Shown here piece after piece: positions 7,004 through 50,308 of a DNA stretch of 54,336 nt (the stretch's first letter is position 1; the number at the start of each line of letters is the position of its first letter). The stretch is taken from positions 1 to 54,336 of the IMG/VR virus record IMGVR_UViG_3300009684_000040. The stretch is one strand, 5' to 3'. Below the pieces are notes generated by a model. The model had not been told where the DNA came from, searched no databases, and worked only from the letters and a program-made list of their open reading frames with translations. The position numbers and the translations under genes were made by a program. The DNA is from a virus.

Positions 7004-7142
7004 TGCTGGGGTGGCGATCATGCTGCTCGAGATACAGGACTACATGGATCTGAGGCCGGAGCAGGAGTCGGTGCTGCTGCCGCTGCTGGATCATCTTCGA
7101 CAGGAAGATCCTACTAGGGTTTCCCCTAGTGAAGAAAGTTGA
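6972..7142 (+). CDS. Small hypothetical protein (GTG start)
   Basis: A 56-residue frame with tandem GTG codons at 6972 and 6975; AAGGAG about 8 bases ahead supports this start. It overlaps the end of rusA by 32 bases. The product (KGFDAGVAIMLLEIQ, then a Leu-rich stretch VLLPLLDHL) is helical with no known family. Its last 27 bases lie inside the first copy of the 43-bp element, so coding and regulatory sequence overlap. Confidence 0.55.
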   Translation: MVKNEWTKGFDAGVAIMLLEIQDYMDLRPEQESVLLPLLDHLRQEDPTRVSPSEES

Positions 7143-7158
7143 AAAAAGTTCACACAAG
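7116..7158 (+). repeat. 43-bp element, copy 1
   Basis: This 43-bp stretch recurs at 11078-11120 with only three differing bases. It begins in an inverted repeat (ACTAGGG, loop TTTC, CCCTAGT, starting at 7113), then carries two AAAGTT blocks spaced 10 bp apart, which places A-tracts in helical phase, and ends in TTCACACAAG. It lies just upstream of the gene at 7206. Most likely a phage regulatory or promoter element. Confidence 0.8.
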
Positions 7159-9841: not shown

Positions 9842-9874
9842 CCAGGACAATGGGTAAGGTAAATTTTCAGTGCG

Positions 9875-10618
9875 ATGAAGTTTTACACCGGAATATTTCA
9901 CCCGCACACCGCCGACAAGGTTGATCGGGCGTTTATTTCGGTAAATGTCTTAAAGAAACGAAAGTCTGGGTTCCCGGTCAAAGAGTGGATTATGGATAGC
10001 GGCGCGTTTACGACGATCAACAAGTACGGCGGTTATCCGGAGCCCGTTAGCGAGTACGCCAAGCAGATTAAGCGCTGGAAGACGAACGGAAACTTGGTTG
10101 CGGCAGTGGCTCAAGACTATATGTGCGAGGCTTGGATGATCGCCAAGACGGGCCTCTCAGTTGAGATACACCAGACCCTGACGATTGAGCGGTACGACCA
10201 GTTGATCGCGGAAGACACGGGCGTCTACATCATGCCGGTGCTGCAGGGATACGCACCGCAAGACTACATAGAGCATTTGAAGATGTATGGCGATCGTCTT
10301 AGCGAGGGCGCGTATGTTGGGGTTGGAAGTGTGTGCAAACGAAACGCCAGCCCAAGCGCGATTGTTGAGGTGCTGCACGCGATCAAGGGGGTTAGACCAG
10401 ACTTGCGCCTACATGGATTTGGCGTCAAAACGACAGCTCTTGCGTGGGCCGACGTACGAGACAACCTTTATTCGGCAGACTCAATGGCTTGGTCCTTCGC
10501 GGCAAGGATGGAAGGGCGCAACGGCAACGACTGGAGAAACGCAGTGAAGTTTCAAGATCGAATCAACAACCAACCGGTGCAGCTTAGTCTGCTTTCACAA
10601 CATGGCCGACCTCATTAA
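9875..10618 (+). CDS. dpdA: DpdA-like DNA 7-deazaguanine transglycosylase
   Basis: 247 residues of the tRNA-guanine transglycosylase-like fold as used by DpdA proteins, which replace guanine in DNA by 7-deazaguanine bases and so protect phage DNA from host restriction. Motifs: WIMDSGAF (38-45, candidate catalytic Asp41), AQDYMC (79-84), MPVLQGY (120-126, substrate-pocket region), VGVGSVCKRN (148-157, the GG/S loop), HGFGVK (180-185) and YSADSMAWS (199-207, second Asp202). The length fits the short phage DpdA group. No preQ0 synthesis genes (folE, queD, queE, queC) are in this window, so the base would come from the host or from genes outside. It lies among small early genes and overlaps the DUF3310 gene by 17 bases. 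Confidence 0.78.
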   Translation: MKFYTGIFHPHTADKVDRAFISVNVLKKRKSGFPVKEWIMDSGAFTTINKYGGYPEPVSEYAKQIKRWKTNGNLVAAVAQDYMCEAWMIAKTGLSVEIHQTLTIERYDQLIAEDTGVYIMPVLQGYAPQDYIEHLKMYGDRLSEGAYVGVGSVCKRNASPSAIVEVLHAIKGVRPDLRLHGFGVKTTALAWADVRDNLYSADSMAWSFAARMEGRNGNDWRNAVKFQDRINNQPVQLSLLSQHGRPH

Positions 10619-10817
10619 CAACCCTCCCCACTACACCGCGGGAGGGATCGAGACTATCGACTATATGCGGGCCAAGGCGAGCCCAGAGGAGTTCAGGGGA
10701 TACCTTCGCCTCAACGCCCTTAAATATCTCTCTAGGGCCGGCCTGAAGGGGGATGCGGTGGAGGATCTGCGTAAGTGTGCCTGGTACGTCAACCGGCTGA
10801 TCGAGGAGATGAAGTGA
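10602..10817 (+). CDS. DUF3310 family protein
   Basis: 71 residues, a near-complete DUF3310: NPPHYTAGGIETIDYM, then RGYLRLNALKYLSRAG and EDLRKCAWYVNRLIEE. Small helical proteins of this family are common in phage early regions, often near nucleotide-metabolism genes; the biochemical role is not known. Confidence 0.9.
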   Translation: MADLINNPPHYTAGGIETIDYMRAKASPEEFRGYLRLNALKYLSRAGLKGDAVEDLRKCAWYVNRLIEEMK

Positions 10818-10897: not shown

Positions 10898-11091
10898 ACT
10901 GCCCTAGTTGCAACCTCAAGACGCGCACGATCGACACCAGGCAGTATTACGAGCCGACACTGAGCTTTAACTGGGCAGCCCGCCGTATCAAGTGCGAAGG
11001 GTGCAACCTGATCAGCAAGACGGTAGAGCTGCCCCACGAGGACTACGAGAAGCTCTACCTGGCGTATGTTGGGACTAAGGGTTTCCCCTAG
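10894..11091 (+). CDS. NrdR/Ogr-like zinc-ribbon protein
   Basis: 65 residues with CPSC at 3-6 and CEGC at 34-37, and the surrounding TRTIDTR...RRIKCEGC, which resembles the zinc ribbon of NrdR repressors and of Ogr-type phage activators. Without the ATP-cone domain of NrdR it is more likely a small phage DNA-binding regulator. Its stop lies within the second 43-bp element. Confidence 0.68.
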   Translation: MNCPSCNLKTRTIDTRQYYEPTLSFNWAARRIKCEGCNLISKTVELPHEDYEKLYLAYVGTKGFP

Positions 11092-11120
11092 TAAAAAAAG
11101 TTCAAAAAAGTTCACACAAG
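11078..11120 (+). repeat. 43-bp element, copy 2
   Basis: Differs from 7116-7158 at three positions only, and keeps the hairpin start, the phased AAAGTT blocks and TTCACACAAG; here the inverted repeat has a bulged A. It lies upstream of the gene at 11184. The differences are in A-tract positions, as for a tolerated regulatory site. Confidence 0.8.
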
Positions 11121-11858: not shown

Positions 11859-12224
11859 ATGCACAAAATTACGGATGAGAGTAAGGAAAAGGTAAGGAAG
11901 CTTGCTGCTGCAGGTGTTAGGTTTGAGGATATTGCCGCGAAGCTTGGCATATCTAGTGACACCCTTACGCGTAGATATAGGCAGGAGTTAGATGACGGTA
12001 GGATTGACGCTAACGCTGCTATTGGAGAGACTTTGTATCAGCAGGCTAAGAATGGTAATACTGCTGCGATGATCTTCTGGCTAAAGACTCAGGGTGGCTG
12101 GCGTGAGAAGAACCACGTTGAGGTTACCGGGGAGAATGGTGGCCCTGTTAAGGTAGACACCTCGATCTTTAATGCCATCATCACCAACCTTGAAGCGAAG
12201 CGCCAGATAGAGACAAATGAGTGA
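11859..12224 (+). CDS. terS: Terminase small subunit
   Basis: 121 residues with an N-terminal helix-turn-helix (RKLAAAGVRFEDIAAKLGI then SSDTLTRRY, residues 13-41) and a helical oligomerisation region, the usual TerS layout. TerS recognises the phage packaging site and loads the large subunit. GGAGG lies 9 bases before ATG and the gene overlaps terL by 8 bases. Confidence 0.85.
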   Translation: MHKITDESKEKVRKLAAAGVRFEDIAAKLGISSDTLTRRYRQELDDGRIDANAAIGETLYQQAKNGNTAAMIFWLKTQGGWREKNHVEVTGENGGPVKVDTSIFNAIITNLEAKRQIETNE

Positions 12225-13644
12225 TGCTGCCCTTATTGCGGCACTTAAGGATCCGGATTTAGCGAAGCAGTTCGCCGCCCTTCCTGAGGTTGATAGGGCT
12301 GCGTTTGAGTGGCGTGCTAAGTGGCTAACGCAGGCACACAAGCATCAGATAATGCCGCCCGGTGAATGGTGGAGTACCTGGTTACTCTGCGCGGGCCGGG
12401 GAGCGGGCAAGACGAGATTAGCCGCGGAGCAGATAGGGTGGCTTACATGGTCCAACCCAGGGACTCGAGCGTTAGTAGCCGCCCCAACCTCCTCTGACGT
12501 TCGCGGTACCTGCTTTGAGGGTGATAGCGGGCTGCTCAATGTAATACCGCCTGCGCTGATTGAGGACTACAACAAGAGCCTGCACGAGCTGCGCCTAAAG
12601 AATGGCAGCCTCATCAAGGGTATCCCAGCAAGCGAGCCGGAGCGCTTCCGAGGCCCTCAGTTCCATTTTGCCTGGGCCGATGAGTTAGCGGCTTGGGACT
12701 ACCTGCAAGAGGCGTGGGACCAGATCCAGTTCGGGTTGCGTCTGGGTAAGCGCACGATCATGATCTGCACCACCACGCCGAGGCCTAAGGATCTGATCAT
12801 CGACCTCATCGGCAGGGATGGTGAGGATGTGGTGGTTACGACCGCCTCCACCTACACCAACCTATCCAACCTGAGCCAGAACTTCCAGAAGCAGATCCTG
12901 CAATACGAGGGCACGAAGTTAGGAAGGCAGGAGATTTACGCCGAGATTATTGATCCCGAGGAGTCTGGGATTGTTAAGCGGGATATGTTTAAGCTGTGGC
13001 CTGTTGATAAGCCATTCCCGCGGTTTGAGTACATTATTCAGAGTTATGATTGCGCCTACACAGAGAAGACGCATAACGATCCGACTGCCTGCATTACCTT
13101 TGGCGTATTCAAGCCGCTCGATAGTCCGATGGCGGTAATGGTAATTGATTGCTGGCAAGACCGATTACAATACCCAGACCTGCGCCCTAAGGTAGTTGAG
13201 GAGTTCGAGAATGTTTACGGTGAAGGCAAGGATCGCAAACGTGTTGATCTCATCCTGGTTGAAGATAAGTCAGCCGGGATTAGCCTCATCCAAGACCTAC
13301 AAAGGGCCCATCTCCCCGTGCGTTCGTACAACCCCGGCGGAGCGGATAAGATGCAGCGCCTGAACATCGTATCCAACATCATCGCCCGCGGCAGGGTATG
13401 GATACCGGAGAGCAGCACCAGGCCGGGATTCGTGAGGGACTGGGCAGAGGGTATGGTTAGCCAGCTCTGCTCGTTCCCTGACACGACCCACGACGATTTC
13501 GTTGACTGTACATCGCAAGGGCTTAGGTTCCTGCGTGACTCTGGCTGGATTGATATTGATCCGCCACCTCGAGATCCTTACGACGACGACGACTACGCCG
13601 ATTCCAGCGCAGGCAAGAAGCGCGTTAACCCCTACGCGATTTAG
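12217..13644 (+). CDS. terL: Terminase large subunit
   Basis: 475 residues. ATPase domain: Walker A CAGRGAGKT (58-66), Walker B FAWADE (151-156, catalytic Glu156), coupling TTTPRP near 188. C-terminal RNase H-like nuclease: SYDCAYTEK, then VEDKSAG, then HDDFVDC carry the acidic residues that cut concatemers. The motor pumps DNA into the capsid. Follows terS as in most tailed phages. Confidence 0.95.
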   Translation: MSDAALIAALKDPDLAKQFAALPEVDRAAFEWRAKWLTQAHKHQIMPPGEWWSTWLLCAGRGAGKTRLAAEQIGWLTWSNPGTRALVAAPTSSDVRGTCFEGDSGLLNVIPPALIEDYNKSLHELRLKNGSLIKGIPASEPERFRGPQFHFAWADELAAWDYLQEAWDQIQFGLRLGKRTIMICTTTPRPKDLIIDLIGRDGEDVVVTTASTYTNLSNLSQNFQKQILQYEGTKLGRQEIYAEIIDPEESGIVKRDMFKLWPVDKPFPRFEYIIQSYDCAYTEKTHNDPTACITFGVFKPLDSPMAVMVIDCWQDRLQYPDLRPKVVEEFENVYGEGKDRKRVDLILVEDKSAGISLIQDLQRAHLPVRSYNPGGADKMQRLNIVSNIIARGRVWIPESSTRPGFVRDWAEGMVSQLCSFPDTTHDDFVDCTSQGLRFLRDSGWIDIDPPPRDPYDDDDYADSSAGKKRVNPYAI

Positions 13645-42289: not shown

Positions 42290-45200
42290 ATGGCTACTGA
42301 CCTCACCGTATTAAAGGGGGAACTTTATCTATTAAACAAAGCGTCTAATAATGGTTACGATAATCGCGCTATGGGGCCGGAGTCCCATATCAATAATATA
42401 GCCAACATCCTATATAACCAATATGGCGTAAAGTCTCTAAAGGATATTGAGCCTTACTGGGTTCCCGCAACGCCCAGAATTGACGGCAGATATGAGATGC
42501 GGCGGACCGGCGACTATCATCATTCATATTCAAGGATGCCGAACGGTTATATGTATGATGTTCAGGTTCCGACCATGACATCTGTTTATATCCCACCGGT
42601 CCCCGCCGTCCCAGCACATTGGTCAACAACGGAAGCGGTAAACAAGGCAAACGGCAAAGTAATCCCAATAGGGCAGATTGGCTCTAGCGGGGAGGGGAAG
42701 GGCTACACAAACTATAAGTTAATTCCGGTTAAACAGGCAAACGGATCAACTGTTTTTGCTCCAGGGCAAGAATGGCATGACTCAAATTCCTTTAACCAGA
42801 TAGCCCCATACCTGTTTTTGGGTTTGGCGCTTACCGGGGTTGGCGGGGTACTTGGTGCCGCAGTTGGATTAGAGGGGGCGGCAGCTAGTGCATTTGGAAC
42901 CGCTGCAATCACAACGGCAATATCGGCTGCTGCAGGAAAAATCGGGGACGTCGGCGATGTTATTGAGTCCTTCGCCAAGGGATTTGCTGGCAACTATTTA
43001 GGAGACATTGTCGGCAAGGAGTTGGGCTCTGTAATTGATGACAGTATTGGAAAGGGCGCGGCGGCTGATGTAATTAAGAATGTTGCCGTTGGCGGGACAA
43101 GAAACGCGATTCAGGCTGCGGTTGACGGGAAAAACTTAAAACAAATTCAAGACGCATTTGAGAAGGGGGGAGCGTCCGCAGCAATTCCTTCAATCCTTGG
43201 TCAGGTTCCCGGATACAAGGATTTGTCTACCGGGGCGCAGGGAATTATTTCAACTGCCCTTACGGGAAAATTGAATGGCAAGGTGCCCACTGCCGGCTTA
43301 ATTCAATCTGCAATAACTGCTACCGGGATCGTTGCCGACACCGCCAAGTCTCTGAATCTTAATCCGGCTCAAGAGAGGCTGATTGTCTCTGGGCTAACAA
43401 ACACCGCGATGGCGTTGGCTACCAATAAGCCAATTGACGAGGCGCTAGCAAAAACTCTAGTACAGGCAGGGCAAACGGCGTTTAATGATCTGGGGAAGAC
43501 TTACGCCAAACAAATCACCGCGGGATTGACTGATAGCGTCAAGGACAAGATAAAGACGCCCCAAGATCTGGCTGTCTTAGTGCAACAGTCCTCCGAAAAC
43601 GTAGACCAGCTTCTTGAAACAATAAGCGCCGCGGACAAACGTCAAAGCGCAATTGAGAGCCGCCTTGCTGCCATCAAATCAGATATTGATCCTCAGATTC
43701 AATCCTATCAAAAGGCAGAGGCAGAAAGAAACAGGCAGCTAACAAACTACTACGACATGATTGGCAGCGGCTACTCCGTTGGCGCAATCAATGACCAGAT
43801 TGACAAGCTAAACGCCGCCACGGAAGAATTTAACACTGAGTCCAATGCGCTGCAAAACAAATGGTCAAAATATGAGGGCGAAACAAAAAGTCTTAATGAC
43901 GAACTAGGGAAGCTAAAGGTTTCTATTCCGAGAGACATTCAATCGTTCAATGACTTTAAGCAAAACCTGCAGGCTGCTGGGAAGACGCTGGACTCCTTTA
44001 ACGAAGACCTTAAGAAAGGCACCGAGGCTTCGTTTGTTAGCAAGGTTGCGCCTGATTTTGATGCAAACGCATACGCCAAGCTTCACAAGATCAACCCGTC
44101 TGAGGCCTACAGCAACTGGATAGGGACTGGGATGACGGCCCCTATCAATGAGGCTGAAGTCAAGACTATGGCGGCCGCCGCTCCCAAGAGTGTTATTGAG
44201 GGGCTAGCGGATGCTGGGGACGTCAAGGAGGGCTTGGTTGACTCCCACCTGGCGTATGCAATTGCTGCGAGCGCGAAGGACCAGCAGGAGAAGGCTCAGG
44301 AGGCTATCCAGGCCAATATGCAGGGCTACGCCAAGGCCGCTTACGAGGCAGCGCAGACCGGTAGCAAGACCTTCAAGTTTATTGGCGATGACGGTGTCCA
44401 GTACACGCTCAACACGCCCAAAGAGCTTCTTCCGCACTCGTACCAGGATGCCCTGCAGACCGCCATTAACAACGGTGACAAGACGTTCAAGTACACCGGC
44501 GAGGATGGCAAAGAGTACACGGTTCCGATCGCAAACAACCTGCTGCCCAAAACTTATCAAGACGCGATGCAGGCGGCGAAGCAGCGCGGTGACAAGACCT
44601 TTCAGTACCTGGGCGAGGACGGCAAGCAGTATACGGTTGCTGTCCCACAGGCCGTGCAGCAGACGTCAATTGTTTCAAAGACGCCGGCCGCGGTTCCAAC
44701 CGTATATGGCTCTTGGAACAAGCCCACCTTAGATCAGTATGAGATCCCTGCTGGCGTCAAGCTCGCCACACCGCAGCAGGTTTACAACGATCGTACAGCG
44801 ACCCTAATGAAGCTCCCAGATGGCAACTACGCCTGGGTGCAGGTGCAGAGCGATCGGGTTCGAGATCAGAAATATGGCACGACGGATCCGGACTGGTTAA
44901 AGGCCAACGACCCGCTCGCTTACGTCGCAACGCTTAAAAACATTCCAACTGATCAGTTGCCGGCGTCCTTGCAGAAGAGTCAGCCTGGCTACGTTAAGGC
45001 TGCAGAGGCTTTGATTGGGAGGGTAAAAGAATTTGCGCCTGACGTTGCTATGGATGCTACGGCCATGCTTCTGAATGGCGCGGGCGACGCAGCAAATATT
45101 TTTGGGGCCGTTGCATCTCTCTTTACTGGCACCAAAACAGAGAACACGGCGCTTGGTAAACTCGCCAAGAACCTAACAAACCTTAGCGATAAGGCAATGA

Positions 45201-48200
45201 GCGACGATCTTCGGTCTGCTATTGCTGATAACGTGCAGAGGTGGAACGACTCAAAAGGGCTCGGCGGTAGCGTTAGTGCGATTGCTCAAAGTATCTGGGA
45301 AAACCCCGTAGCCACTCTGGGGTTCCAGGCTGGGTCTGAGGTGGTCAGTGAACTGCTTACGGGAGGGTTTGCAGGAGTTGGGGCGAAGTTAGCTGGAAAG
45401 GCGGCTAAAGGTGCTTACGTTGCCGATGAGCTGGCGGCAAAGATTGCATCCAAAACCGGCATTGTGATGGCCGAGTTTCCGGAGATCGTTTCAGGGGTTA
45501 AAGGCGCGTTTGAGGACACCTATAAGGACGTATACGACACCGCAATCAAAAACGGTAAGACGGATGCTCAGGCCGCTCAAATGGCTGCTGAGGCCGCGTA
45601 TAAGGTCGCCGGCGCAAGCTTGGTAACGGGGCTGGTTGTCAACGGGAAAAACCCAAATGAACTGTCTAACCTCATGTTTGGAGCCAAACCATCGGCTTCC
45701 AAGCAGAACTTTTTAGACGCAACAACGGGCCTCTCTAAGGCATATGTTAATCAAGTAAAAAAGACGGGCGCGGAAGAGGCTAAAGACGAATTCATTGAGC
45801 AGTTGGTGCCAAGCTCCGTTAGGGATCTTTACAAAGGCGCAAACTTTGGGCTTTCAGAAATTGACCCCGGCAAGAGTCTAACCGAGGCGGCGTATGCAGG
45901 GATTATTGGGGGACTGACAGGCGGAACGATTGCTGCCGGCGTTATTCCTGCACGAAGCATTGATGATGTAAACAGGAATATTACAACGCTGACCTCGCCC
46001 GCAATGTTGACGGCGATTGATAAGGCGCAGCAGATCAAGCCTGGTACGCCCTCATACACCTACGACAATCTTAAGGCTGCAGAGAATCAGATTATTACTG
46101 CTGCCCATGAAATAGGCGTACAAGATCCAGAGCAGATTTCTAAGATAATTTTAAGCGTCCAGCCTGACGCAAATATAAACGAAGTCAACAAATTGATTGA
46201 GGCAGACGCCAGAGCCTCAATTGAAAAGTCAATAAAGGAGTCTGCACCAACGCTTAGTCCGTCTGCTCTTAAATCTGCCGTTGACGACAACTACAACAGA
46301 TTGTCTACGTCTATATTTGAGAGCAAAGATACGTCTATCGCAACCGCATCAATGGACCCAAGTGCGGCGTCCAGTTACATCACATCAAGACAGTCTGCGT
46401 CAACTTCTTTTTCGTTATATGCAAGCCAGCAGGAGTCATTAAAGCCTGGCGCGTCAAAGTCTTTGATGTCATCGTCCTTGTCCGCGTCATCGCTGTCTGC
46501 CTACAAATCATCTTCGGCAAGCGTATCTAAATCCGTAGCGGACAAATCAGAGTCCACTCAGAAAAGCCTTTCCCTTTCCTCGCAGTCGGCGCAATCGGAA
46601 TCTGTAAGTAAGTCGCAAAGTACATCCATCTCATCTGATGCGTCAAAATCATCTTCAATTGAAGCTTCAAAATCGTCTTCGATCTCTAGCGTGGCTGCGT
46701 CCTCTAGCAGGTCACAGAGCGCATCTATTTTGGCTGAACAATCAAGGTCGAAATCTATTCAGGCCTCAGAGTCAACCAGCGCGTCTTCGTCAAAATCTAT
46801 ATCGGAAGTAAAGGCCGCTTCTATCTCTAAGTCCACTTCCTTATCTCAATCTACTTCAAGTTCAAAATCGTTATCCACATCTCTTTCCATCTCAACCTCC
46901 TCTAGCAACGCGGCAATTAGCGCGTCAAAAGCCGGGTCTGAGGCTGTTTCAAAATCCAAATCGGTTTCAATTGTATCTAACTCTGTTTCAGTTTCTAAGT
47001 CGATTTCAACGTCAACTTCAATATCTTTGTCGCAGTCAAAGTCTGTTTCAACGGATCAGTCTTTGTCGCGGTCAAACTCTACATCGGCCTCCAATTCGGC
47101 GTCGCGGTCTATTAGCACTTCGTCTTACAAGGCCTCGGTGGACGCATCTAAGGCTGAGTCTAGTCGGCAATCTATTTCTGCCTCGGCGTCTCGGTCTGCT
47201 AGCGTTTTGGCGTCCCAATCGCTCTCCACGTCAAAATCTATATCTACCTCCGAGTCTCAGTCGGCCTCTAAATCTATACTTTTGTCTCAGGCCCAGTCAT
47301 CACGAGATGAGTCGGCGTCAAAGAGCACTTCAAAATCACTCTCAGAATCCACCTCTAGAGTGTCTTCATCTAAAGCCTCTGTAGACGCCTCAACATCAAA
47401 GTCAATTTCAGATTCCGTTTCCAAATCTGCTAGCACCTCTGCTTCCAAGTCGGCTAGCGATTACGCATCAAAAATATCTGCAGACTCTTCGACATCAAAA
47501 TCTATTTCATTGTCAGCGTCCACGGCTGCAAGCACATCCCTGTCCAAATCTAATCTTGAAGCCTCAACATCAAAGTCAATTTCAGAATCCACCTCTAGAG
47601 TGTCTTCATCTAAAGCCTCTGTAGATGCCTCAACATCAAAGTCAATTTCAGAATCCACCTCTAGAGTGTCTTCATCTAAAGCCTCTGTAGATGCCTCAAC
47701 ATCAAAGTCAATTTCAGAATCTTCTGCCAAGAGTTCTAGCGCCTCTAAAACTTCATCACCGGCAAGCTCAACGCCTCAGTCCTCAAGCGCCTCATTGCCA
47801 AGCACTACCACAGATGCTTCGGCGTCTGAATCAGCTTCTAAATCAATTAGCCTATCCGCGTCTAAAGAGGCTTCAAAATCTCAATCTGCCGCAGCACTTG
47901 CGGAAACTTCTGCTTCAAAGTCGGCAAGCATATCTGCGGTTAAAGCCTCAAAAGACGCTTCAATTTCAAAATCAACGTCCGAATCAGTATCTAAATTAAC
48001 CTCAAAATCAATTAGCGCGTCCTCGGTTGCGGCTTCAAATTCCGCATCAAAGTCGCAATCAGTATCGAATTCCATATCAAAGTCGTCTAGCATTTCTGCT
48101 TACAAATCGCAAGCGGCAACGACCGTCTCTACAACGGGAAGCGTAAACCCTTGCCAATCAAAGTCAATATCTTATTCCGCCTATCAGTCGCTCCAAGAGT

Positions 48201-50308
48201 CGGCAGCCAAAATATCCAAAGACGCATCTATCTCAATCTCAACCTCAAAGTCCCTTTCAAACTCAATATATGAGTCAAATCGGGTTGCCAGCGTACAGAA
48301 TTCCAAGAGCGCGTCTGTATCAAAATCATCTTCATTGTCAGCTTCGAGGTCCATATCAACGTCTTCTATTGAAAACTCAACAAGCGTCTCTCGAAGCGAA
48401 TCTATCTCAAAATCTATTTCATACTCAACATCAACATCTACAAACGCTTCTGCCGCCAAAGCATCAAGAGACGCCTCGACCTCTCAATCCAAATCAATTT
48501 CGGCATCTAATTCTTCGCAGACCTCCCAGAGTCAGTCCGTTTCAAAACCTGTTAGCCAATCAAATGCCAATCAGTCAAACAAGGTTTCGCCAACAACGTC
48601 AACCTCTGGTAAATCGCTAACCGTCAACGCCTCAAAAAGCGAGTCAATTTCAAGGTCTCAGTCAGCATCGCTGTTAATGTCAACCTCGGTTTCTGTTAGC
48701 GTTTCCAAAGTAAAGAACTCAAAAAGCGAGTCCATTTCAAGGTATCAGTCAGCATCGCTGTTAATGTCAACCTCGGTTTCTGTTAGCGTTTCAGGGGTAA
48801 AGAACTCAAAAAGCATATCTGCCTCCAAATACGCTTCAGAGTCAACGTCAACTTCTATCTCAAAATCAACCAGCGTTTCAAGCGTAAAGGCCTCGAAGGC
48901 TTCGTCTGCCTCTCAAACAAAATCTTCGTCTAGTTCAAAGCCGGTCTCGTCTAGCGCATCGTCCTCTGCGGCGTCGTCATCCAAGTCTTTGCAATCATCT
49001 TCTGTAAAGCCAGTAAACTCAGAGTCCATTTCAAAGTCAGTTTCTGCGTCAATCTCGGTCTCCAACTCAAAATCAATTTCGCAGTCTAAGTCCATATCGG
49101 CTTCTAATTCCAAGTCAATTTCTTCTTCTATATCAAAATCAACGTCTATTTCCATATCAACATCCAAGTCGGTTAGTAAAAAACCCAAGGTTACAAGCAG
49201 CGGTTCTGGATCTGTTGCTCCGACATCGTCACAAACGAGTAGCGCGTCTCAGACTACGGGAACTAGCACCGGGACCTCAGTAGACAGCTCTTCAAGTGTT
49301 AGCAAATCTATTAGCGAAAGCGTATCTCAGAGCCTTAGCACTAGCATTGAAAATTCTCTTAGCACGTCAACCAGCGAATCAATCAGTACGTCAACCAGCG
49401 AATCAATCAGTACATCAATCAGCGAATCAATCAGTACGTCAATCAGCACGTCAATCAGCAACTCAATCAACACATCAGTTGACACTTCAACCAGCACCGA
49501 TGTTCAGCCGCCGCCCACTTCTTCTGTTGTCACTACGTCTGCAAGCGAAACGACGTCGGCTCCCGTAACGACTTCCCCTGCTATCACCTCTTCTGCGGTG
49601 CAGTCCTCGACCGAGACAACCTCGTCGCCACCCGTCACATCTTCGCCCGCCGTAACATCTTCGCCCGCCGTAACGTCATCGCCTGCTGTAACTTCGCCAA
49701 AGGTCACGGTACCTCTATCAAGTAGTCGACCGGCAAGCAGTGGATTTCAATTCAGCACCCCTTCAATTGCGCCAGTTACGGATTCCACGTTCTCAGATTA
49801 TGTTAGGCCTATAATTGGCGGCGCACCGGCATACAAGGGAATTTTGGATCAGTTTTTCAAGAAAGTTGAAACGGACAACCAACCGGAGGCTTCCATGCCC
49901 AAGCAAGCTTATTATGAGTATGGAGAGTCAACTCCGATTTCTGACATTATTGGCAGCAACGAAGAGGTCGCTCCAGAAGAGGAGCCTGCTTTTGCTGCTG
50001 GCGGATTAACGTCTCCCCTAAAAACCTTCTATAAGTCGGGTAAAATACGCCAGGACTTCCGCAAGGGCGATGCCGTCTCAGGGCCTGGTGATGGGCAATC
50101 TGACGACATTCCCGCGATGCTAGCGGATGGCGAGTTTGTTATTCCCGCTGACGTCGTGGCTGCCTTGGGTAACGGCTCAACTAAGGCTGGGAGCGATCAG
50201 TTGTACAAGATGATGCACGAAATTCGTAACCGTGCCAGGTCTGCCCACCCGAAGAGCCTTCCACCTAAAGCTCTGTCGCCACTTGATTACCTGAAGCGGA
50301 GAAAATAA
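42290..50308 (+). CDS. Giant serine-rich virion protein (2,672 aa)
   Basis: N-terminal 1-180: unknown. 180-280: Ala/Gly-rich hydrophobic helices (LGLALTGVGGVLGAAVGL) as in ejection or tape-measure proteins. 430-560: coiled coil. 691-790: three 38-residue tandem repeats around GDKTFKY.GEDGKEYTV. 890-1340: more hydrophobic helical segments (AYAGIIGGLTGGTIAAGVI). 1359-2404: serine-rich tract, about half Ser by eye (patterns SKSISESTS, SASTSKS). 2405-2484: Thr/Pro/Ser mucin-like stalk (PVTSSPAVTSSPAVTS). 2485-2672: globular end with AAGGLTSPLK and GPGDGQSDDIPAMLADGEFVI, a motif found at C termini of tape-measure-type proteins. It fills the tape-measure/ejection slot between GT60 and internal proteins. 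Frame is intact throughout. Confidence 0.75.
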   Translation: MATDLTVLKGELYLLNKASNNGYDNRAMGPESHINNIANILYNQYGVKSLKDIEPYWVPATPRIDGRYEMRRTGDYHHSYSRMPNGYMYDVQVPTMTSVYIPPVPAVPAHWSTTEAVNKANGKVIPIGQIGSSGEGKGYTNYKLIPVKQANGSTVFAPGQEWHDSNSFNQIAPYLFLGLALTGVGGVLGAAVGLEGAAASAFGTAAITTAISAAAGKIGDVGDVIESFAKGFAGNYLGDIVGKELGSVIDDSIGKGAAADVIKNVAVGGTRNAIQAAVDGKNLKQIQDAFEKGGASAAIPSILGQVPGYKDLSTGAQGIISTALTGKLNGKVPTAGLIQSAITATGIVADTAKSLNLNPAQERLIVSGLTNTAMALATNKPIDEALAKTLVQAGQTAFNDLGKTYAKQITAGLTDSVKDKIKTPQDLAVLVQQSSENVDQLLETISAADKRQSAIESRLAAIKSDIDPQIQSYQKAEAERNRQLTNYYDMIGSGYSVGAINDQIDKLNAATEEFNTESNALQNKWSKYEGETKSLNDELGKLKVSIPRDIQSFNDFKQNLQAAGKTLDSFNEDLKKGTEASFVSKVAPDFDANAYAKLHKINPSEAYSNWIGTGMTAPINEAEVKTMAAAAPKSVIEGLADAGDVKEGLVDSHLAYAIAASAKDQQEKAQEAIQANMQGYAKAAYEAAQTGSKTFKFIGDDGVQYTLNTPKELLPHSYQDALQTAINNGDKTFKYTGEDGKEYTVPIANNLLPKTYQDAMQAAKQRGDKTFQYLGEDGKQYTVAVPQAVQQTSIVSKTPAAVPTVYGSWNKPTLDQYEIPAGVKLATPQQVYNDRTATLMKLPDGNYAWVQVQSDRVRDQKYGTTDPDWLKANDPLAYVATLKNIPTDQLPASLQKSQPGYVKAAEALIGRVKEFAPDVAMDATAMLLNGAGDAANIFGAVASLFTGTKTENTALGKLAKNLTNLSDKAMSDDLRSAIADNVQRWNDSKGLGGSVSAIAQSIWENPVATLGFQAGSEVVSELLTGGFAGVGAKLAGKAAKGAYVADELAAKIASKTGIVMAEFPEIVSGVKGAFEDTYKDVYDTAIKNGKTDAQAAQMAAEAAYKVAGASLVTGLVVNGKNPNELSNLMFGAKPSASKQNFLDATTGLSKAYVNQVKKTGAEEAKDEFIEQLVPSSVRDLYKGANFGLSEIDPGKSLTEAAYAGIIGGLTGGTIAAGVIPARSIDDVNRNITTLTSPAMLTAIDKAQQIKPGTPSYTYDNLKAAENQIITAAHEIGVQDPEQISKIILSVQPDANINEVNKLIEADARASIEKSIKESAPTLSPSALKSAVDDNYNRLSTSIFESKDTSIATASMDPSAASSYITSRQSASTSFSLYASQQESLKPGASKSLMSSSLSASSLSAYKSSSASVSKSVADKSESTQKSLSLSSQSAQSESVSKSQSTSISSDASKSSSIEASKSSSISSVAASSSRSQSASILAEQSRSKSIQASESTSASSSKSISEVKAASISKSTSLSQSTSSSKSLSTSLSISTSSSNAAISASKAGSEAVSKSKSVSIVSNSVSVSKSISTSTSISLSQSKSVSTDQSLSRSNSTSASNSASRSISTSSYKASVDASKAESSRQSISASASRSASVLASQSLSTSKSISTSESQSASKSILLSQAQSSRDESASKSTSKSLSESTSRVSSSKASVDASTSKSISDSVSKSASTSASKSASDYASKISADSSTSKSISLSASTAASTSLSKSNLEASTSKSISESTSRVSSSKASVDASTSKSISESTSRVSSSKASVDASTSKSISESSAKSSSASKTSSPASSTPQSSSASLPSTTTDASASESASKSISLSASKEASKSQSAAALAETSASKSASISAVKASKDASISKSTSESVSKLTSKSISASSVAASNSASKSQSVSNSISKSSSISAYKSQAATTVSTTGSVNPCQSKSISYSAYQSLQESAAKISKDASISISTSKSLSNSIYESNRVASVQNSKSASVSKSSSLSASRSISTSSIENSTSVSRSESISKSISYSTSTSTNASAAKASRDASTSQSKSISASNSSQTSQSQSVSKPVSQSNANQSNKVSPTTSTSGKSLTVNASKSESISRSQSASLLMSTSVSVSVSKVKNSKSESISRYQSASLLMSTSVSVSVSGVKNSKSISASKYASESTSTSISKSTSVSSVKASKASSASQTKSSSSSKPVSSSASSSAASSSKSLQSSSVKPVNSESISKSVSASISVSNSKSISQSKSISASNSKSISSSISKSTSISISTSKSVSKKPKVTSSGSGSVAPTSSQTSSASQTTGTSTGTSVDSSSSVSKSISESVSQSLSTSIENSLSTSTSESISTSTSESISTSISESISTSISTSISNSINTSVDTSTSTDVQPPPTSSVVTTSASETTSAPVTTSPAITSSAVQSSTETTSSPPVTSSPAVTSSPAVTSSPAVTSPKVTVPLSSSRPASSGFQFSTPSIAPVTDSTFSDYVRPIIGGAPAYKGILDQFFKKVETDNQPEASMPKQAYYEYGESTPISDIIGSNEEVAPEEEPAFAAGGLTSPLKTFYKSGKIRQDFRKGDAVSGPGDGQSDDIPAMLADGEFVIPADVVAALGNGSTKAGSDQLYKMMHEIRNRARSAHPKSLPPKALSPLDYLKRRK
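44360..44660 (+). repeat. Three 114-bp tandem repeats in the giant protein
   Basis: Units begin at 44360, 44474 and 44588 (38 codons each, the last one shortened). The consensus product is GDKTFKYTGEDGKEYTV followed by a Leu/Pro/Tyr-rich helix QDALQ; aligned residues match mostly at conserved positions with synonymous drift, so this is an old duplication. Confidence 0.85.
46364..49501 (+). repeat. Serine-rich low-complexity tract
   Basis: Codons 1359-2404 of the giant protein: Ser at about every second position with Lys, Ala, Ile, Thr and Val between. Both TCN and AGY serine codons are used. Contains recent duplications: a 66-bp unit as tandem copies at 47585-47650 and 47651-47716, plus a distal copy at 47345-47410; an 87-bp unit at 48635-48721 and 48722-48808; and 24-bp units near 49365-49480 (TSTSESIS). 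Confidence 0.9.

Follow-up and report, generated by a model that had tools for sequence, protein, structure and literature searches.

The ORF at positions 9,875 to 10,618 of a viral DNA fragment of 54,336 nt (the whole stretch that was analysed, called 'the window' below) encodes a genuine DpdA, and its locus belongs to a known arrangement in which a phage dpdA occurs without preQ0-synthesis genes alongside. The gene product is probably a stand-alone enzyme, carried as an accessory cassette, that replaces guanine in the DNA of the phage by a 7-deazaguanine derived from the host or from uptake, likely with an anti-restriction role.

Genomic context and identity of dpdA

The window, a linear fragment from IMG/VR, has incomplete ORFs at either end, and its source phage has been described as freshwater. 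Replication genes (for a primosomal protein, a DnaB-type helicase and RusA) are followed by the dpdA-DUF3310 pair and then by the terminase, portal and virion genes (Table 1). Searches with the terminase large subunit (TerL) identified at least 587 confirmed relatives, which make up a large uncultivated phage group; the nearest phage record was MW202545 (Manatee Spring, 70%), followed by Caulobacter phages (43%), and a megablast of the first 25 kb of the window against phage records returned nothing. Elsewhere in the window, a single 2672-aa ORF (42290-50308) with no Pfam match above cut-off is flanked on one side by the gene for a GlcNAc-type glycosyltransferase and on the other by one that matches 'DNA ejection protein'; it possibly encodes a giant internal virion protein.

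Table 1. Coordinates of the features discussed in the text (window positions unless a locus is given)
Feature	Position	Strand	Remarks
dpdA	9875..10618	+	ATG start, 247 aa; presumed catalytic D41 (MDSGAF) and D202 (SADSMAWS)
DUF3310 gene	10602..10817	+	71 aa; overlaps the dpdA 3' end; retained in sisters lacking dpdA
Terminase large subunit	12217..13644	+	Used to find phage relatives
dpdA cassette	9844..10602	+	Present in the window, missing in L021, where the flanks join cleanly
dpdA-VUT/YhhQ adjacency	L011:10001-11220, L182:10001-11312, L171:10001-11274, L223:4405-6278, L224:3282-4738		Unrelated phages and actinobacterial plasmids

The original prediction had read four motifs (MDSGAF, MPVLQGY, VGVGSVCKRN and SADSMAWS) in this ORF, and all four were present exactly as claimed, in a plus-strand frame of 247 aa. 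Its placement of the protein in the DpdA branch of the TGT fold was borne out by the DpdA-family profile check, in which the Pfam family DpdA (PF23859) matched at an E-value of 7.6e-41 (140.4 bits, with a cut-off of 27). PHROG 1279 also matched (E 3.9e-61); its label, 'queuine tRNA-ribosyltransferase', is shared by the GenBank names of the phage homologues. No TGT family profile was found in the protein, a Pfam scan to an E-value of 10 giving DpdA and a weak TH1 match only.

Using tblastn, 402 phage records were found to match the window DpdA, the best relatives being Microcystis phages (56%), Sinorhizobium phage phiLM21 (52%) and Rhizobium phage RHph_TM3_3_3 (51%). Mycobacteriophages accounted for 390 of the matching records, with approximately 36-42% identity among the matches listed; Pegunavirus phages (68-69 kb), which we believe to include Orion, encode homologues about 39% identical to the window protein. 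A single-sequence search of bacterial genome contigs confirmed no relatives, a profile search of such contigs gave 37 loci, and the family was present in 134 plasmid records. The dpdA of Microcystis phage Mwe-JY07 (L013:12001-12768) seems to be frameshifted in its last fifth, being recovered in two pieces by tblastn, and SADSMAWS is missing from its annotated frame.

Fold and active site

As sequence searches of the PDB gave chance matches only, the protein was compared at the level of the fold, using a structure model built on an alignment of 46 relatives (mean pLDDT 92.5, pTM 0.89). The top Foldseek match in the PDB, and further support for the predicted DpdA assignment, was 7ui4 (DNA preQ0 insertase DpdA; E 1.3e-6, TM 0.59 on query), with tRNA TGTs ranking after it, while the best match among predicted viral structures was a mycobacteriophage homologue (TM 0.84 on query). 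D41, Q124-G125, G149-S152 and D202 were invariant across the 46 relatives, and the two aspartates were also invariant in an alignment with the DpdA proteins of phages 9g, CAjan and 7-11; a profile comparison with 9g DpdA likewise aligned the catalytic motifs. From general knowledge of TGTs, we equate D41 with the base-recognition aspartate of the motif DSGGF, and D202 with the nucleophile. The sequence has no C-terminal Cys/His zinc site like that of tRNA TGTs: with only two cysteines (C84 and C154) in 247 aa, there is no room for it.

preQ0-synthesis genes and precursor supply

No folE, queD, queE or queC was found in the window, in line with what had been predicted: QueD and QueC profiles gave nothing in its six frames, a Pfam scan of plausible ORFs returned no FolE, QueC, QueD, radical-SAM (QueE) or QueF family, and the complete dPreQ0 pathway (folE, queD, queE and queC with dpdA) was not encountered within the fragment. 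Nor did any QueC match exceed the cut-off in 49 other viral contigs with dpdA (many of them 40-70 kb long), in clade relatives of 52-60 kb, or in the records of phiLM21, RHph_TM3_3_3 and Mwe-JY07.

QueC or the queuosine-precursor transporter family TIGR00697 was encoded by every one of 35 bacterial genomes examined for carrying close DpdA relatives, a result that is consistent with outside supply but is weak evidence and no proof, because QueC is common in bacteria. Strong QueC matches (E better than 1e-20) were obtained for 28 of these genomes and one, a Candidatus Eremiobacterota MAG, had a QueC split into two neighbouring pieces within a single open frame, while the remaining six (Geminisphaera, Aureimonas, two Hyphomicrobiales MAGs, Elainella and Microvirga) matched TIGR00697 above cut-off. 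Geminisphaera colitermitum TAV2 carries three dpdA loci (L118, L131 and L132) and a queuosine-precursor transporter, with no convincing QueC.

From 87 dereplicated dpdA loci, 118 neighbours in the same orientation as dpdA were selected for a survey, and among these neighbours C5 DNA methylase (6) and Vut_1 (5) were the commonest Pfam families; the others included Lar (2), N6/N4 methylase, a 5-hmdU DNA kinase domain, Mom, ArdC-N and one PTPS (QueD family). A Vut_1 gene was present in 6 of 50 dpdA-bearing viral records, and in five of the six (L011, L171, L179, L182 and L211) it directly followed dpdA on the same strand; the pairing recurred, with the VUT gene first, on two plasmids, from Nocardia and Embleya. 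Three tested VUT proteins were related by NCBIfam to queuosine-precursor transporters, and because these matches fall below the cut-off the substrate is a presumed one. The adjacency of the two genes in unrelated phages and on plasmids suggests a module of dpdA plus precursor uptake, and its recurrence in relatives opens the idea of salvage to testing. The Pfam scan of the window ORFs gave no VUT family, that is, no such transporter of the phage's own. The original prediction had left the supply of preQ0 either to the host or to synthesis genes elsewhere in the phage genome; host-derived preQ0 is the better supported of the two and genes elsewhere the less supported, and external supply of the base, presumably by the host, is the best reading for the window phage.

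Selection and accessory status

Between the window dpdA and close homologues in other phages (L001-L008), dN was approximately 0.08-0.12 with synonymous sites near or at saturation, and dN/dS was 0.03-0.05 in the two comparisons for which it could be computed. Selection on the gene is strongly purifying. In its distribution dpdA acts as an accessory cassette that can come or go independently: the sister phage L021 (IMGVR 3300027741), approximately 97% identical around the locus, has no dpdA (Table 1), and its DUF3310 gene can start with a GTG overlapping the upstream stop, whereas in the window dpdA lies in between and DUF3310 starts with ATG. In L001, L006, L007 and L012 dpdA adjoins DUF3310, like in the window, while dpdA is absent from L030 and from most of the other TerL relatives whose sequence extends far enough upstream. 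Proteins 86-88% identical to the window DpdA were found in a different phage type (L002-L005 and L008), where their gene immediately precedes a different terminase gene.

A functional partnership between DUF3310 and DpdA was considered and rejected, since DUF3310 also occurs in dpdA-negative sisters; it gave no BLAST match to the kinase-annotated dpdA neighbour in phage 7-11. The variable region that holds dpdA is bracketed by a 45-bp direct repeat (7114-7158 and 11076-11120), in which an A-rich stretch comes after a small inverted repeat (CTAGGG-TTT-CCCCTAG). The repeat also occurs in L021, L007, L030 and L001 (up to three copies), and was not found in more distant relatives.

Restriction-site signal

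Palindromic hexamers were depleted in the window (1-54336), with an observed/expected ratio of 0.69 relative to 0.98 (sd 0.03) in Markov simulations, and several type II sites were absent altogether (for example AACGTT, 0 observed and 15.9 expected); the phage lineage may meet type II restriction. The depletion was alike in dpdA-positive and dpdA-negative relatives and was dropped as a sign of modification status, and because the dpdA-negative relatives show the same it neither supports nor refutes modification.

Interpretation and alternatives

In the reading that we regard as probable, DpdA would swap guanine in the phage DNA during infection for a 7-deazaguanine, most likely preQ0, through a TGT-type base exchange in which D202 would attack C1' of the nucleoside and D41 would act as the base-recognition and acid-base aspartate. 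The base would come from the queuosine pathway of the host or from uptake, and the phage would likely benefit by having some sites shielded from the restriction enzymes of its host. Genes for DNA methylases and anti-restriction functions near dpdA in relatives were counted in favour of a DNA-modification reading, and the same neighbours argue against an enzyme acting, as a TGT, on host or phage tRNA instead of DNA. The tRNA alternative draws on the PHROG and GenBank names and on the tRNA TGTs that come after DpdA in the fold search, but it is very unlikely given that Pfam identifies DpdA and no TGT family, that the top PDB match is a DNA enzyme, and that a protein of this length with two cysteines cannot accommodate the TGT zinc site. 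That the phage carries folE, queD, queE and queC outside the fragment and, like CAjan and Rosebush, synthesises preQ0 itself appears highly improbable: the open ends of the window would allow it and one relative has a PTPS/QueD-family neighbour of dpdA, but QueC was lacking above cut-off both from the 49 dpdA-bearing viral contigs and from the 52-60 kb clade relatives, and the synthesis genes that adjoin dpdA in CAjan and 9g do not do so in the window.

Several points were counted against the preferred explanation, base exchange in phage DNA with an external supply: published DpdA-only phages have unmodified or trace-modified DNA, the window phage lacks a transporter of its own, QueC is common in bacteria, and a sister phage approximately 97% identical does without dpdA. 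The absence of dpdA from the sister, shared by most TerL relatives with enough upstream sequence, could instead mean that dpdA is a near-neutral passenger, an intact enzyme whose base is rarely found in the hosts used and which causes little or no modification, as the unmodified DNA of Orion (PMC6884629) would also allow. The strong purifying selection and the occurrence of nearly the same protein in different phage types argue for a selected function, and make a passenger quite unlikely. A broader view, unlikely but worth stating, is that the short PHROG 1279 DpdAs form a widespread minimal 'salvage' module of phages, prophages and plasmids, often with a VUT transporter, some of which may insert a salvaged base other than preQ0 (for example preQ1).

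Comparison with known systems

Hutinet et al. (2019) described 76 phages that encode DpdA but lack the synthesis genes (group 3, the DpdA-only phages), for which host preQ0 or uptake was suggested, and reported YhhQ homologues in some phages, with no correlation to any group (PMC6884629). The window phage, known here from an open-ended fragment, probably fits this group: like the group 3 phages and Pantoea phage MED16 it has dpdA, with preQ0-synthesis genes not found in the window, and the same combination holds for the 49 other dpdA-bearing viral contigs as judged by QueC only. Unlike the DpdA-only phages studied by mass spectrometry, it is known from sequence alone. The claim of the original prediction that DpdA implies modified guanine in the phage DNA goes too far, since the DNA of Orion is unmodified, Salmonella phage 7-11 has approximately 0.02% of G as dADG (PMC6884629), and MED16 has approximately 0.13% of G as dADG in DNA that is still cut by several enzymes (PMC8306585). 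Modified DNA is not assured for the window phage because these published DpdA-only phages show none or traces.

At the protein level, 7-11 DpdA has no detectable similarity to the window protein by BLASTP or profile, although both aspartates align. The best solved-structure match, 7ui4, is longer (413-residue target) and 16% identical. Phages phiLM21, RHph_TM3_3_3 and Mwe-JY07/25 encode the same short PHROG 1279 protein (51-56% identity), but are of other phage types, with other neighbourhoods and no DUF3310 overlap. The DpdA proteins of Escherichia phages CAjan and 9g (306-317 aa, approximately 21-22% identical) align with that of the window in their catalytic motifs; their dpdA sits beside FolE, QueD, QueE and QueC-type genes, whereas that of the window does not, and near the CAjan dpdA lies a gene annotated as a putative preQ0 transporter, a kind of gene that the window phage does not have. 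The DpdA-only phages were the largest and least understood group of the 2019 survey, and the window phage and its sister provide a natural comparison of two phages approximately 97% identical in DNA, with and without a single dpdA gene.
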